Below, piece by piece: positions 2,077-15,612 of a stretch of 36,190 bases of DNA. The translations under genes and the position numbers were made by a program. The notes beneath the pieces were generated by a model. It did not search any database, had not been told where the DNA came from, and saw only the letters and a list, made by a program, of their open reading frames with translations. Within the stretch, counting starts at the first letter, position 1. The number at the start of each line of letters is the position of its first letter. Source of the stretch: a virus. Location of the stretch: positions 1 to 36,190 of IMG/VR virus record IMGVR_UViG_3300028025_000007. The stretch is one strand, 5' to 3'.

Positions 2077-2589
2077 TTAAACTCCTTTGAGTTGTAGTTG
2101 AAATGATTCTTCATCCAACATGATTGCGATAATAGCGTAACCCACAATGTCAATATAGGAGTCCACTAATGATTCGTTTTTTGGGGTGCCACGCTTCTCT
2201 AGGTTTTTTATGCGAGCAATCTTGTCGCATAAACGGATACCGATTCCGATTACACCAAAGTTGTTGATATTATCATGACCGTAGTCGTGTTGTTTGCCAC
2301 ATACAATGTCCACGATGTTCGGCATGTCCGTGCCAAGATTAGTGCTCAACCAGTACAGGGCTTCTACTCCTGCTCGTTTGGCAACCATAGTTGCCAACTC
2401 TAGGTCGCTTTCATCATAGTCACCTTCTTGTAGTCCTTTAATCCATCGGGACATAAAGGTTTCAATAGGGTCAAACTTGTTGCGGTCCGACAAGGTATTC
2501 TTTGCGTCAGACATAATAGAATCATATGCGGCTTGTGCCGCTTGATTAAAGTTCTTATGATTGTGTTTGCGCCTAGTCTCTGATTTCAT
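2077..2589 (-). CDS. Nmad1/DUF1599-like protein (nucleotide-modification-associated)
   Basis: A 170-aa protein whose C-terminal half (residues about 97-162) carries the typical DUF1599/Nmad1 pattern: KQHDYG, a Gly-rich strand, RLCDKIARIKNL, then an acidic VDSYIDIVGYAI helix. Members of this family occur in phages and are associated with nucleotide metabolism or modified bases; the biochemical role is generally not established. A GGAG Shine-Dalgarno precedes the start, which overlaps the sigma-like gene by 17 nt. The assignment rests on pattern memory. Confidence 0.65.
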   Translation of the reverse strand: MKSETRRKHNHKNFNQAAQAAYDSIMSDAKNTLSDRNKFDPIETFMSRWIKGLQEGDYDESDLELATMVAKRAGVEALYWLSTNLGTDMPNIVDIVCGKQHDYGHDNINNFGVIGIGIRLCDKIARIKNLEKRGTPKNESLVDSYIDIVGYAIIAIMLDEESFQLQLKGV

Positions 2590-2947
2590 ATTTCATCTCC
2601 AATATTTCCATGAGTTGCGCATTACTGCGTAATGCGTACTCTAGTTTTTCCATTGCTGCTTTTGTTTTACGCCAAGCATGTGACTTGGCTTTTATTCCTA
2701 TGAGTCGTGCTGCTTCTTGAAATGTTTTTCTTTCGTAGTAAATTAATTGTATCATCTGCTGGTCAATGCCGTCTAGCGTGGACAGAATCTCACGAACCAA
2801 TGCAACCATCTCATCGTTGTCCACGATTGGGATGCTTGTTTGGTTTGGCATCATTAACCATTCGGTGCTGTTTGGGTCGTATTCCCTTATGTCGGGAATG
2901 TCCTTGCCATCACCTAGTGGGTTGTTATAACTTGGGTACTGTGTCAT
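2573..2947 (-). CDS. Sigma-factor region 4-like helix-turn-helix protein
   Basis: A 124-aa protein. Residues about 48-108 resemble sigma-70 region 4: a helix ending ILSTLDGIDQQMIQLIYYER, then TFQEAARLIGIKAKSHAWR, then KTKAAMEKLEYALRS. This matches the usual order of helix, turn, recognition helix and a final RLxxAL-type helix. Region 2, which binds the -10 element and core polymerase, is not visible, so it is not a complete sigma factor. It could be a transcription activator, an anti-sigma or an appropriator-like protein. It overlaps both neighbours (23 nt and 17 nt). It is the best local candidate for a regulator of the repeated right-arm motif, but this is only inference. Confidence 0.55.
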   Translation of the reverse strand: MTQYPSYNNPLGDGKDIPDIREYDPNSTEWLMMPNQTSIPIVDNDEMVALVREILSTLDGIDQQMIQLIYYERKTFQEAARLIGIKAKSHAWRKTKAAMEKLEYALRSNAQLMEILEMKYEIRD

Positions 2948-3440: not shown

Positions 3441-3733
3441 GCTACTCCGTTCAGTCCGTCCATTAACAACTTGACATAGTTATCTAGGTCACCCCGTAAT
3501 GTGGATTTTGGTAATGTTCCTTCTGATATTTCGCTGACAGTTATTCTGATTCCTTCTTTAGTGAACTGACACACTAAACTTACATCCCCATCATAACATG
3601 GTCCTGTCCATGCTTCACGAACAATCGTTTCAGCATCTATGGTTGTTTGTGGTGTGAAGACACGCCCTCGGCGTGTCATTCGTGGGCGACCCTTTGGTAC
3701 AGGTTTCATCGCTATGTTAATACTGTGCGACAT
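3392..3733 (-). CDS. rusA: RusA-like Holliday junction resolvase
   Basis: A 113-aa protein with the RusA signature: PVPKGRPRMTRRGRVFTP near residues 11-28, then RGDLDNYVKLLMDGLNGVAWQDDKQV at about 80-105. RusA enzymes cut four-way junctions, and Asp82, Asp84 and an Asp at 101-102 match the metal-binding acids of the family. The length is normal for the family. Its ATG overlaps the TAA of the upstream hydrolase gene (TAATG), indicating coupled translation. In this genome it would resolve recombination or replication intermediates before packaging. Confidence 0.9.
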   Translation of the reverse strand: MSHSINIAMKPVPKGRPRMTRRGRVFTPQTTIDAETIVREAWTGPCYDGDVSLVCQFTKEGIRITVSEISEGTLPKSTLRGDLDNYVKLLMDGLNGVAWQDDKQVKMLIATKE

Positions 3734-4314
3734 TATTGTGCCTGCTGAATAAACATGTGAAACGGGGCACCAGTACCTGAGTCAAACTTTGCTGATATGT
3801 TTAATGCCTTGAGCATTAACGGACGCACAGTTGCAACGGTAATCTTTTTCTTTTCCGTAACAGCCTGCAATGCACCCAAACCATAATGTGCACCAGAACC
3901 AATAGCATACAGATTACATGTATCTACCTCGGTGCCATAATCGTTGTCTATTTGGAACACAACACCATTAGCAACAACCAGTATTTCGTTAGCGGATTGT
4001 GCTGGCTGGTCATCATATTGTGGTCTGCCTGCACCATGCTGTTCCAAACATTCCTTATAGGCTGGAACGAATTGCGACACAATGAACTTCGCTAGTTTAG
4101 CACCATTAACTTTAGGTGGTAATGCTGGTGGTGTGAACGCATGTTGGATAACATTTGCACCACGGGTATCACCTGCTACACCAATAAGGTATTTGCCTGC
4201 GGTAATAACTTTGGATTGGTTCATTCTGCCAACACGATTATAGTCGTCCGTCCATTGTGTGTCCGCACCAATGCACGCCCAGTTGTCACCTTGTATTGCT
4301 AGGATTGTTGTCAC
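3733..4314 (-). CDS. HslV/proteasome beta-like N-terminal-nucleophile hydrolase
   Basis: The GTG at 4314 overlaps the upstream TGA (GTGA) and gives a 193-aa protein starting M-T-T-I-L-A-I-Q. Removing fMet would expose a threonine, which is the catalytic nucleophile of HslV and proteasome beta subunits. Other family features follow: GADTQWTDD, SKVITAGKYLIGVAGD around residues 34-49, and YAIGSGAHYGLGALQA around 137-152. A longer reading would add a basic leader with no matching ribosome site. Length and motifs are closest to HslV-type peptidases. No partner unfoldase is adjacent. It may process virion proteins or act on host proteins; this is untested. Confidence 0.8.
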   Translation of the reverse strand: MTTILAIQGDNWACIGADTQWTDDYNRVGRMNQSKVITAGKYLIGVAGDTRGANVIQHAFTPPALPPKVNGAKLAKFIVSQFVPAYKECLEQHGAGRPQYDDQPAQSANEILVVANGVVFQIDNDYGTEVDTCNLYAIGSGAHYGLGALQAVTEKKKITVATVRPLMLKALNISAKFDSGTGAPFHMFIQQAQ

Positions 4315-5228
4315 GAATGTACCCTTACTACTAGTTTGTCTATTTCTAATTCGCCGTTGGGGCGAAGATGATACTTGCCCCAACGCTTATCGGCGGTGCG
4401 CACAATGGTCTTAGTCTGGGAGGGATTAAGACCTGAGCGCACACACTCATGTCCAAGTTTCGCTAGAGTTGTTGAACGGTCTTTACCTGCAAGCGGACCG
4501 TCACGCCAAATAACCTTACCCAATGGTGATAACGATTCCATAGCGTCAGGCAATGTGGCATCATAATCGTTGTAATCCGTAGCAACAATAGGTGTATGGG
4601 ATGGTTCAACATACATGCTAGCAATCTGCTGGATGCGTTCTGCTGGCACACGATTATCCATAGCGTTACGCACAAAGTCCAGCAGTTGCATTGGCACATG
4701 CTTGTCCTTGATTGTTGCCCTAAGGATTATGCGCTGCTTATCCGTATGCAGGTCATCTATGTGGGCGTATGGCAACCGAACATAGTTGCCATACTGCCCA
4801 TGCTTCAATGCTTTCTGCTTAGGATTAACCTCTGTTGCTGGAACCTCTGCAACCTGCGATGCCATAAGCAACATGTAACGCATGTCTATAGCACGGACAG
4901 GAACATCAGAGAACACCCAAACATGATAGCCCTTAGAGCGTGACTTCTCTATCCAAGATACGATACCAGCCTCAAGTAATGCGTCATGTAGTTTAACAGC
5001 ATTGTCTAAAGCATCTGTTGTGTCAAAGTCTGAGCAACCCCAAGCAACATAAAAGTCGCCACCATTAGGAACCATAGGGTACACGCCGATTGGTGCATCC
5101 ATGAAATGGTTTTGAAATACATCTAGGGTTAATGGGGCTTTGACACAACGACCCTCGTCATGTCCGTAAACATCTCCACGACCCCGAAACAAGGTAATGA
5201 AGTCTTTAAGCAAATACTCTGGTATCAT
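4311..5228 (-). CDS. Archaeo-eukaryotic primase (AEP/Prim-Pol) superfamily protein
   Basis: A 305-aa protein. WGCSDFDTTD at residues about 63-72 supplies the paired acidic metal ligands (Asp67, Asp69). SRSKGYHVWVF at about 96-106 is the sGrGyHlWvF-type motif with the conserved histidine, and KHGQYGNYVRLPYAH near 163-177 is the next conserved block. These features mark the AEP catalytic core. The C-terminal third (SLSPLGKVIWRDGPLAGKDRSTTLAK) resembles a PriCT-like helical region. It starts 4 nt after the helicase gene and presumably primes replication with it. No DnaG-type primase is seen. Confidence 0.75.
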   Translation of the reverse strand: MIPEYLLKDFITLFRGRGDVYGHDEGRCVKAPLTLDVFQNHFMDAPIGVYPMVPNGGDFYVAWGCSDFDTTDALDNAVKLHDALLEAGIVSWIEKSRSKGYHVWVFSDVPVRAIDMRYMLLMASQVAEVPATEVNPKQKALKHGQYGNYVRLPYAHIDDLHTDKQRIILRATIKDKHVPMQLLDFVRNAMDNRVPAERIQQIASMYVEPSHTPIVATDYNDYDATLPDAMESLSPLGKVIWRDGPLAGKDRSTTLAKLGHECVRSGLNPSQTKTIVRTADKRWGKYHLRPNGELEIDKLVVRVHS

Positions 5229-7681: not shown

Positions 7682-7734
7682 GGTACTCTAGTACCGAAAC
7701 CTTGATAGGTTTATTATACTTTATCACTGTCAAT
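7682..7734 (-). promoter_or_regulatory. Candidate promoter and two dyads upstream of the RecB-like gene
   Basis: On the minus strand TTGACA (7734-7729) and a perfect TATAAT (7718-7713) occur with only 9 nt between them. Two dyads follow at once: AAACC/GGTTT (7697-7701 and 7708-7712) and GGTAC/GTACC (7682-7686 and 7691-7695). The TATAAT is a plausible -10. The dyads may be operator half-sites or small RNA hairpins in the leader. The 9-nt spacing is too short for a normal -35/-10 pair. Confidence 0.4.
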
Positions 7735-8265
7735 CATTTCTGTCCTTGCTACTTTTATTGCTCTAAATAGTTTCTTGAAATAAACCATAGTGTTTACACC
7801 AGTACCATAGTCTCTACCAATCTTGGCAAAGTTGGGTTTATCTTCTAGGCAAGCATAACAGAATGAACGGAACTGCGTTTCGTTCATGGAGTTTTGCTTC
7901 TTGTTCACAGTAACAGCAGTATAGAACTCGTCTAAGGATATGTCCAGTTTGTTTAGTATGTCCATAATTTCTGCGTCTGGAAACTGTTTGCCATAATCTA
8001 ATACAGAGTTTCTTATGTGCTGCCATTTCTGTAAGGATGTTAAGCCCGATAGTTCTAGTGGCGGAATCGTGTCAAACGATTGCGACATGAAACCATTAGT
8101 GGAACGGAACAGGTCATAGCATTGTACTAGTTTGTCAAAGTAATTGAGCATTGTGTCGGTTGTCCACACATGACCCATGTCTTGTGTGTAACCCATGATT
8201 TCACATATGCGTTCACCTTGCCACATACCGTACACTGCATCAACCTTAATGAATGTGTCAGTCAT
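7714..8265 (-). CDS. Hypothetical protein, 183 aa
   Basis: I do not recognise a family. The C-terminal third (MNETQFRSFCYACLEDKPNFAKIGRDYGTG followed by VYFKKLFRAIK) could form a helix-turn-helix, because a short helix, a turn at KIGRDYGTG and a second helix are plausible. The first two thirds look mostly helical. It overlaps the upstream small gene by 8 nt. A DNA-binding role is possible but not shown. Confidence 0.65.
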   Translation of the reverse strand: MTDTFIKVDAVYGMWQGERICEIMGYTQDMGHVWTTDTMLNYFDKLVQCYDLFRSTNGFMSQSFDTIPPLELSGLTSLQKWQHIRNSVLDYGKQFPDAEIMDILNKLDISLDEFYTAVTVNKKQNSMNETQFRSFCYACLEDKPNFAKIGRDYGTGVNTMVYFKKLFRAIKVARTEMIDSDKV

Positions 8266-13106: not shown

Positions 13107-13349
13107 TTACTTGGCGGACACCTTCGTGTAGGTGTAGAACAATGTTGGGTTCTGCTCATCCGACTCCACGATTGACGATGCAATCAACGCTTGGATGATG
13201 ACCTTCTGCTCGCTTCCGTCCACCTTACGGACATCCACAACCGTACCAGTCTCCAACACCTCGCTTGCGTTATCAAACGCAACCGTCCACCACTTGTCGC
13301 ACTTTGCGTAACGACCCATTACAACTACTGCTAATTTCTTGCGTGCCAT
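13107..13349 (-). CDS. Small hypothetical beta-rich protein, 80 aa
   Basis: Starts MARKKLAVVVMGRYAKCDKW after a clear GGGAGG. The pattern of strands (TVAFDNASEVLETGTVVDVR, VIIQALIASSIV) suggests a small barrel fold. I recognise no family. It is flanked on both sides by gene-free leaders with hairpins. Confidence 0.7.
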   Translation of the reverse strand: MARKKLAVVVMGRYAKCDKWWTVAFDNASEVLETGTVVDVRKVDGSEQKVIIQALIASSIVESDEQNPTLFYTYTKVSAK

Positions 13350-14695: not shown

Positions 14696-14766
14696 TACTT
14701 TTTGGGTTTTGGTTTACGCAACAAACGCAACAAAACACGGTCCTGCTCACTAAGGCTTAGGTTCAT
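14695..14766 (-). CDS. 23-aa basic micro-protein (tentative)
   Basis: A short frame, MNLSLSEQDRVLLRLLRKPK, ending in lysines. It starts inside the preceding 43-aa gene and its TAA overlaps the ATG of the DUF5872-like gene. It has no strong ribosome site. It may be a real coupled micro-gene or only a translation-relay leader. Confidence 0.35.
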   Translation of the reverse strand: MNLSLSEQDRVLLRLLRKPKPKK

Positions 14767-14881
14767 ATTCTTCCCAATCATAATCAATGCTATCCAAAGC
14801 AGCAAACACTGCTCTAAGAAACAGGGCTATTCCACCGAAGGTTAAAACCGCTGTCCCTACAATAATACCGAATGTTCTCAT
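14750..14881 (-). CDS. 43-aa small membrane protein
   Basis: First gene of the left arm. AGGGG precedes the ATG at 14881. One hydrophobic segment (FGIIVGTAVLTFGGIALFLRAVF) is followed by an acidic tail (SIDYDWEEYE). As the first gene after the divergent control region it is probably made early. The function is unknown; a membrane-acting early protein is possible. Confidence 0.55.
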   Translation of the reverse strand: MRTFGIIVGTAVLTFGGIALFLRAVFAALDSIDYDWEEYEPKP

Positions 14882-14938: not shown

Positions 14939-15029
14939 GTATTGTCAGTTAACGCCCCACTACACTGGCGTTCGTGGGACGCAACCACTAGGTTGTGTCC
15001 CCCCTACCCCCCTATACTAAAAACATGCT

Positions 15030-15037
15030 GTTCCCTA
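15030..15037 (-). promoter_or_regulatory. TAGGGAAC motif, inverted copy
   Basis: The only minus-strand copy found of the right-arm boundary motif. TAGTAT follows after 10 nt on that strand. It is oriented toward the left arm, about 150 nt before its first gene. Confidence 0.5.
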
Positions 15038-15056
15038 TACAAGTTGAATACAAGTT
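15038..15056. repeat. Two TACAAGTT direct repeats 11 nt apart
   Basis: TACAAGTT occurs at 15038-15045 and 15049-15056, an 11-nt offset that places both on the same DNA face. They are adjacent to the inverted TAGGGAAC. Confidence 0.6.
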
Positions 15057-15094: not shown

Positions 15095-15134
15095 TGTAAC
15101 ATAACTGTAACAAAGATTTAACACAACTGTAACA
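15095..15134. repeat. Four TGTAACA-type repeats at exact 11-nt spacing
   Basis: TGTAACA starts at 15095, 15106 and 15128, and TTTAACA at 15117. All four are spaced by exactly 11 nt, close to one helical turn. The array lies just upstream of the TAGGGAAC and the small terminase gene. It resembles an iteron or activator array and could also be a terminase recognition site. Confidence 0.65.
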
Positions 15135-15166
15135 TTCTAGGGAACAAGTCGCTTATCTTAGAATGT
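15132..15166. promoter_or_regulatory. 8-bp inverted repeat across the small terminase start
   Basis: ACATTCTA (15132-15139) and TAGAATGT (15159-15166) are perfect inverted arms 19 nt apart. The second arm contains the ATG at 15163 and the first contains the start of a TAGGGAAC. In RNA it could hide the start codon; in DNA it offers two ATTCTA half-sites. Confidence 0.6.
15138..15159 (+). promoter_or_regulatory. TAGGGAAC-N8-TATCTT boundary motif 1
   Basis: TAGGGAAC (15138-15145), 8 nt, then TATCTT, 3 nt before the small terminase start. The gene has no usual Shine-Dalgarno. Confidence 0.6.
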
Positions 15167-15612
15167 CGGAAAACTCCTTAGACCCTAGGCAAGAAAAGTT
15201 TCTAAACTGGCTGTGCACACCTGCTAATGGCAGGGTGCCATCCAGCCAAAACCAATATGCCATAGCAGAAGGCGTGGACGAAACCACACTGAGACGATGG
15301 AAAAAGAAACCCATCTTCAAACAGGAGTGGGAACGAAGAATTAATGAACAACAACAATCACCCGAAAGAACACAACAGTTGCTGGACAATCTATTCCAGC
15401 GTGCTCTTGAGGGGGATAACAATTCGGCTAAACTGTATTTGCAGGCTACTGGTCGTTTGGCTCCCGTTCAACTTCAGGTTGAGCATAGTGGCAAAGCGAG
15501 TGAGTTGTCTGATATAGAGTTGGCTGAGTTGATTGCCGCTAATGCGGCATCAGAACAGCGTTTCCGTTTGGAAACCAGAACAGTGAAGGCTAGCGATGAC
15601 AACAACGAATGA
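15163..15612 (+). CDS. Small terminase subunit (phBC6A51-like), probable
   Basis: A 149-aa protein. The N-terminal part (DPRQEKFLNWLCTP ... VDETTLRRWKKKPIFKQEWE) matches the helix-turn-helix pattern of phBC6A51-type small terminases and related HTH proteins. TLRRWKK is the recognition helix and a helical oligomerisation segment follows (TQQLLDNLFQRALEGDNNSA). It would bind the packaging site and load the large subunit encoded 4 kb downstream. It is the first gene of the right arm. It lacks a clear ribosome site and its ATG lies in an inverted-repeat arm. A transcription-factor role cannot be excluded. Confidence 0.7.
   Translation: MSENSLDPRQEKFLNWLCTPANGRVPSSQNQYAIAEGVDETTLRRWKKKPIFKQEWERRINEQQQSPERTQQLLDNLFQRALEGDNNSAKLYLQATGRLAPVQLQVEHSGKASELSDIELAELIAANAASEQRFRLETRTVKASDDNNE

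Follow-up and report, generated by a model that had tools for sequence, protein, structure and literature searches.

The small terminase gene (terS) of the phage studied here is preceded by a phased array of four TGTAACA-type units, which we read, with a probability of roughly 55%, as a multi-unit operator for a host-supplied, OmpR/PhoB-type response regulator with a winged helix that would control the start of the late arm. That a host protein acts here, which one it is and whether it activates or represses are our inference; the protein would probably be PhoB-like. The window, meaning the whole stretch of DNA that was analysed (36,190 nt, IMG/VR record IMGVR_UViG_3300028025_000007), is a circular assembly with a 127-b end overlap. 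Its array occupies the divergent gap between a 43-codon ORF, where the leftward arm begins, and terS. The right arm carries the genes for TerL, the portal, the scaffold and the major head protein, and the left arm those for a primase, a helicase, an exonuclease, RusA and a CobS-like ATPase.

A sequence-only reading of this DNA had described four units at 11-nt phasing. Both the units and their spacing are exact on re-reading, which confirms that the phased array is real (Table 1). Single TGTAACA words are not enriched (10 in the window, with 8.8 expected), and the signal is the phased array, not the heptamer by itself. The four units contain 1 mismatch to TGTNACA in 24 positions, while the best of the simulated arrays, drawn from 60 Markov-1 genomes at seven periods, had 5. 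An assumption-free search for any 7-mer repeated four times returned one match in the window and none in 40 shuffles.

Table 1. Positions of the array units and of neighbouring features in the window.
Feature	Position	Strand	Basis or remark
43-codon ORF, opens the leftward arm	14750..14881	-	sequence read directly
Possible leftward promoter (TTGTAT-N17-TAGTAT) that shares bases with the TAGGGAACA motif	15014..15042	-	weak match to the consensus; similar layout in relatives
Left-facing TAGGGAACA motif, inverted relative to its copy at 15138	15029..15037	-	
Two ATACAAGTT direct repeats	15037..15056	.	kept in the array-less clade; Fur-box-like palindrome instead in the sister group
Array unit 1, TGTAACA	15095..15101	+	sequence; in-register conservation in relatives
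Array unit 2, TGTAACA	15106..15112	+	sequence; in-register conservation in relatives
Array unit 3, TTTAACA	15117..15123	+	TTTAACA/ATTAACA in nearly all relatives, usually as penultimate unit
Array unit 4, TGTAACA	15128..15134	+	sequence; in-register conservation in relatives
TAGGGAACA motif between the array and terS	15138..15146	+	at many intergenic gene starts in this phage family
terS, small terminase subunit gene, opens the rightward late arm	15163..15612	+	homologue comparison

The small terminase assigned beside the array by the same reading is a genuine homologue and shares 30% identity with the TerS encoded ahead of terL in MW202803. No DNA similarity to named phages was found, TerS had no match in the named-phage collection, and the best match of TerL was an uncultured podovirus (51%). 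These comparisons did not point to a host, and a search for tRNAs as a clue to it found none. The window phage has a gene for a peptidase of the proteasome/HslV family (3733-4383, minus strand). An actinobacterial host, at first suspected from this gene, was given up because no evidence supported it.

A search found 80 related loci. The array upstream of terS is retained in about 39 relatives. Group 1 has four units, and the sister group (group 2) usually has six, with TGTTACA and TGTCACA variants. Across relatives the units follow the profile (G/T)TNACA; the fourth position is unconstrained, and the 4-nt spacers are rich in A. The penultimate place is nearly always filled by TTTAACA or ATTAACA, so unit 3 is not a decayed copy, and this conserved unit makes the array directional. 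In 19 related genomes, three-unit arrays number 37 at period 11, mostly adjoining terS; the other periods between 8 and 15 yield 0-3 apiece. The array is degenerate in G006 (locus L029) and at locus L021. It is absent from group 3, a clade with TerS 68-77% identical, which retains the ATACAAGTT pair. A second array is present in three genomes (G001, G018 and G006). It lies roughly 1.15 kb inside the left arm, past the second large gene of that arm, and stops directly before a terminator-like hairpin.

Around the array of the window, several repeats had escaped the sequence-only reading. An 8-bp inverted repeat (CCTAGAAT/ATTCTAGG) lies on both flanks, a 9-bp inverted repeat (TGTTCCCTA/TAGGGAACA) encloses the array, and the direct repeat ATACAAGTT stands to its left, starting at 15037 and 15048 with 11-nt spacing. 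In group-2 relatives, including G005, G007 and G009, the left promoter bears the palindrome TGAGAATNATTCTCA, which resembles a Fur box, in place of the ATACAAGTT pair; this palindrome adjoins the leftward TAGGGAACA. The motif TAGGGAAC occurs in the window at 15138, 16147, 18007, 20776, 22980, 24804 and 27870 on the plus strand and at 15037 on the minus strand. It has 76 intergenic sites in 19 genomes, in which intergenic DNA makes up 6.5% of the sequence. These sites lie at gene starts, often with an AT-rich stretch and a start codon 20-25 nt downstream, and TAGGGAAC is possibly a phage promoter, a transcript start or a leader element. A candidate for its reader is a 124-aa sigma-factor-like protein (2573-2947, minus strand), whose region-4 similarity lies below the Pfam cut-off.

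The layout of the array is that of an OmpR/PhoB box, with head-to-tail direct repeats at an 11-nt period. Units 1, 2 and 4 agree exactly with the published consensus of the family, and unit 3 differs by one mismatch. No OmpR-type DNA-binding domain (Trans_reg_C) was found in 10 phage genomes, with positive controls. Since the phage encodes no such protein, the regulator would have to be supplied by the host, and a host regulator is the simplest reader of the array.

Similar arrays are present in bacteria. A scan of bacterial genomes with the three-unit pattern gave at least 119 loci, and among the matches listed 102 of 119 were intergenic; at period 12, 108 of 120 among the matches listed were coding. 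The raw three-unit counts at periods 11 and 12 are both lower bounds and were dropped as evidence. For this reason complete four-unit scans of IMG/VR were used, which gave 92 loci at period 11 versus 11 at period 10. Thirty genes adjoining bacterial arrays, chosen by size and position and thus not a random sample, were typed by Pfam. Many serve phosphate uptake: four PBP_like_2 proteins (PstS belongs to this family), three ABC permeases, two PHO4 transporters and one Porin_O_P. The others included one sensor kinase, one ammonium transporter, three cell-wall hydrolases and two integrases. This mix is what boxes of several OmpR/PhoB-family regulators, together with integrase arm sites, would give.

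Other, unrelated phages have the array upstream of TTTACA-N17-TATAAT sigma-70 promoters in many of the four-unit loci. The distances from array to minus-35 element (14-15, 24-26 and 36 nt) follow helical-turn steps with a Rayleigh R of 0.82; the associated p of about 1e-7 ignores phage relatedness and is indicative. In the phage of L353, a distant relative, a second array (L646) stands 8 nt before TTGACA-N17-TACAAT. TGTNACA arrays whose distances to strong sigma-70 promoters follow helical turns also occur in T4-like phages that have cobS (phrog_249) and a gene for a peptidase (phrog_459). Such arrays are found at L269 (4683 and 7105), at L255 (3091) and at other viral loci. Judging from these matches, the TGTNACA array near sigma-70 promoters is a widespread phage upstream element. 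The sequence-only reading had left open whether the repeats form an activator array, a packaging site or an iteron origin. Of the three, the activator array is the best supported, given the 7+4 layout, the phosphate-uptake genes in bacteria and the helical-turn distances to phage promoters.

In the mechanism that we propose, regulator monomers would bind the 7-bp units head to tail, one per helical turn, and would load cooperatively onto one face of the DNA, oriented toward terS and adjoining the late promoter. Once bound, the protein would act on the start of the rightward late arm, which comprises terS and the structural genes, and would most likely activate it. Activation is likelier than repression because other phages have the array upstream of promoters. 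In the window phage, repression is possible, as a weak pair of promoter-like elements, GTAACA-N17-TAACAT, shares bases with units 2 and 4 and would put the predicted transcription start near GGGAAC. Late expression would then be shaped by a host signal, namely phosphate starvation if the reader is PhoB or PhoP, and envelope or nitrogen state if it is of the WalR, MtrA or GlnR type.

Several observations count against a host regulator. No canonical sigma-70 promoter was found downstream of the array in the window, and the gap between array and GGGAAC varies among relatives (3-18 nt). The second arrays of G001, G018 and G006 precede a hairpin and have no obvious promoter, and a related clade lives without the array altogether. 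Integrases use such arrays too, and the typed bacterial neighbours were a selected set.

A transcription regulator encoded by the phage itself, such as the 183-aa protein (7714-8265) or some small protein that has escaped recognition, appears to us a rather unlikely reader. The 183-aa protein is predicted to be helical with a C-terminal three-helix, HTH-like unit, and it is less conserved in the clade without the array (27-35% identity) than in array-bearing phages (42-91%). However, general divergence splits the same way, and the protein gave no match to a DNA-binding family or PDB entry and no usable fold match. A further protein of 80 aa (13107-13349) turned up in genomes with the array and in no others, but it is predicted to be all-beta and found no convincing fold match. 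Moreover, identical arrays stand beside bacterial genes and in phages that are unrelated, which speaks against a reader particular to this phage. Arm-type sites for an integrase, either relics of an integration module or still serving one, are a further reading. In some other phages and Bacteroidota elements the same arrays lie 5-21 nt from a tyrosine integrase gene or overlap its start. At six loci, 11-nt TGTNACA arrays stand at this distance from such genes, where they are probably arm-type sites. For the window phage this explanation is largely refuted, as no Phage_integrase domain was found in it or in nine others of its kind, with positive controls.

Both a packaging site and an iteron origin are less likely than an array for a host regulator. 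That the array forms part of a pac or cosB-like site bound by the adjoining TerS is improbable. Its place directly upstream of terS would suit such a role, lambda cosB being located upstream of Nu1, and distant TerS relatives have arrays in the same place (L353, TerS 41%; L306, L342 and L309, TerS 34%). Against this, the TerS recognition-helix region (VDETTLRRWKKKP) is identical in phages with and without the array, which makes a TerS site unlikely: the DNA-binding residues and the site do not vary together. The reading is weakened further by second arrays 1.15-2 kb away in the left arm of some phages and by the same arrays far from any terminase. The record ends share no common terminus. As to a physical genome end at the array, the assemblies of the window and of six relatives are circular and overlap at their ends, and overlaps in several circular assemblies span 73-127 bp. 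An iteron-type replication origin we consider more improbable still. The phased direct repeats do lie in the gap between the divergent arms, where the cumulative GC skew reaches its minimum, but this minimum coincides with the gene strand switch, and GC skew was rejected as origin evidence since it follows gene orientation. No cognate initiator gene was found, the recognised genes comprising only a primase, a helicase and an exonuclease, with small unassigned ORFs remaining; the primase and helicase genes are distant, and a whole related clade lacks the array. The proposed origin is thus left with no positive evidence.

Control of phage genes by host PhoB has been described mainly for auxiliary genes of cyanophages and a few replication genes. 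If the host-regulator reading is true, the nutrient or envelope state of the host can influence virion building through a late-operon array that is kept across divergent phages, and host stress may help to switch the late genes for packaging and structure. Given how widespread the arrays before sigma-70 promoters are among other phages, phage transcription would in general take input from host response regulators. More tentatively, a family of aquatic podovirus-like phages might have the operon for packaging and structure gated by nutrient sensors of the host, with a Pho-type array on the terS side and the Fur-box-like palindrome of the sister group on the opposite side. In the open-access literature we found no report of an array of this type at a terminase operon.

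Among known systems, iteron origins and lambda cosB resemble the array in their phased repeats and in the place beside a terminase gene. They differ in that the window phage is without an initiator, its TerS helix does not track the array, and the arrays recur elsewhere. Boxes of the actinobacterial regulator MtrA overlap those of the GlnR type. The GTAAC-n6-GTAAC of the array fits the GlnR consensus, GTnAC-n6-GTnAC (PMC10704036), literally, although such boxes are actinobacterial and nothing points to an actinobacterial host for the window phage. The array also shares 7+4 direct repeats and the 11-nt period with the boxes of WalR/VicR (YycF), whose consensus, TGTWAHA-N4-TGTWAHA (PMC4168254), is matched exactly by units 1, 2 and 4. 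However, WalR is a Firmicute regulator, and its boxes usually have two units, whereas phage arrays have four to six, some of them TGTCACA or TTTAACA. In cyanophage S-PM2d, gel shifts showed that host PhoB binds phage promoters, including that of the DNA polymerase gene, and the authors considered Pho-box prediction in phages unreliable (PMC10976474). The likeness to our proposal lies in a host response regulator acting on phage promoters, a core gene included; the cyanobacterial Pho box has another sequence, no terminase or late operon is involved, and binding was tested there by gel shift. Although the phage array precedes a packaging and late operon with no phosphate gene, and a classical minus-10 element is absent at the expected place, it shares multiple 11-nt direct repeats with the Pho boxes of PhoB/PhoP, as seen in the PHO boxes of Streptomyces (PMC7866108), and its bacterial examples lie similarly far ahead of the start codons of genes for phosphate uptake.
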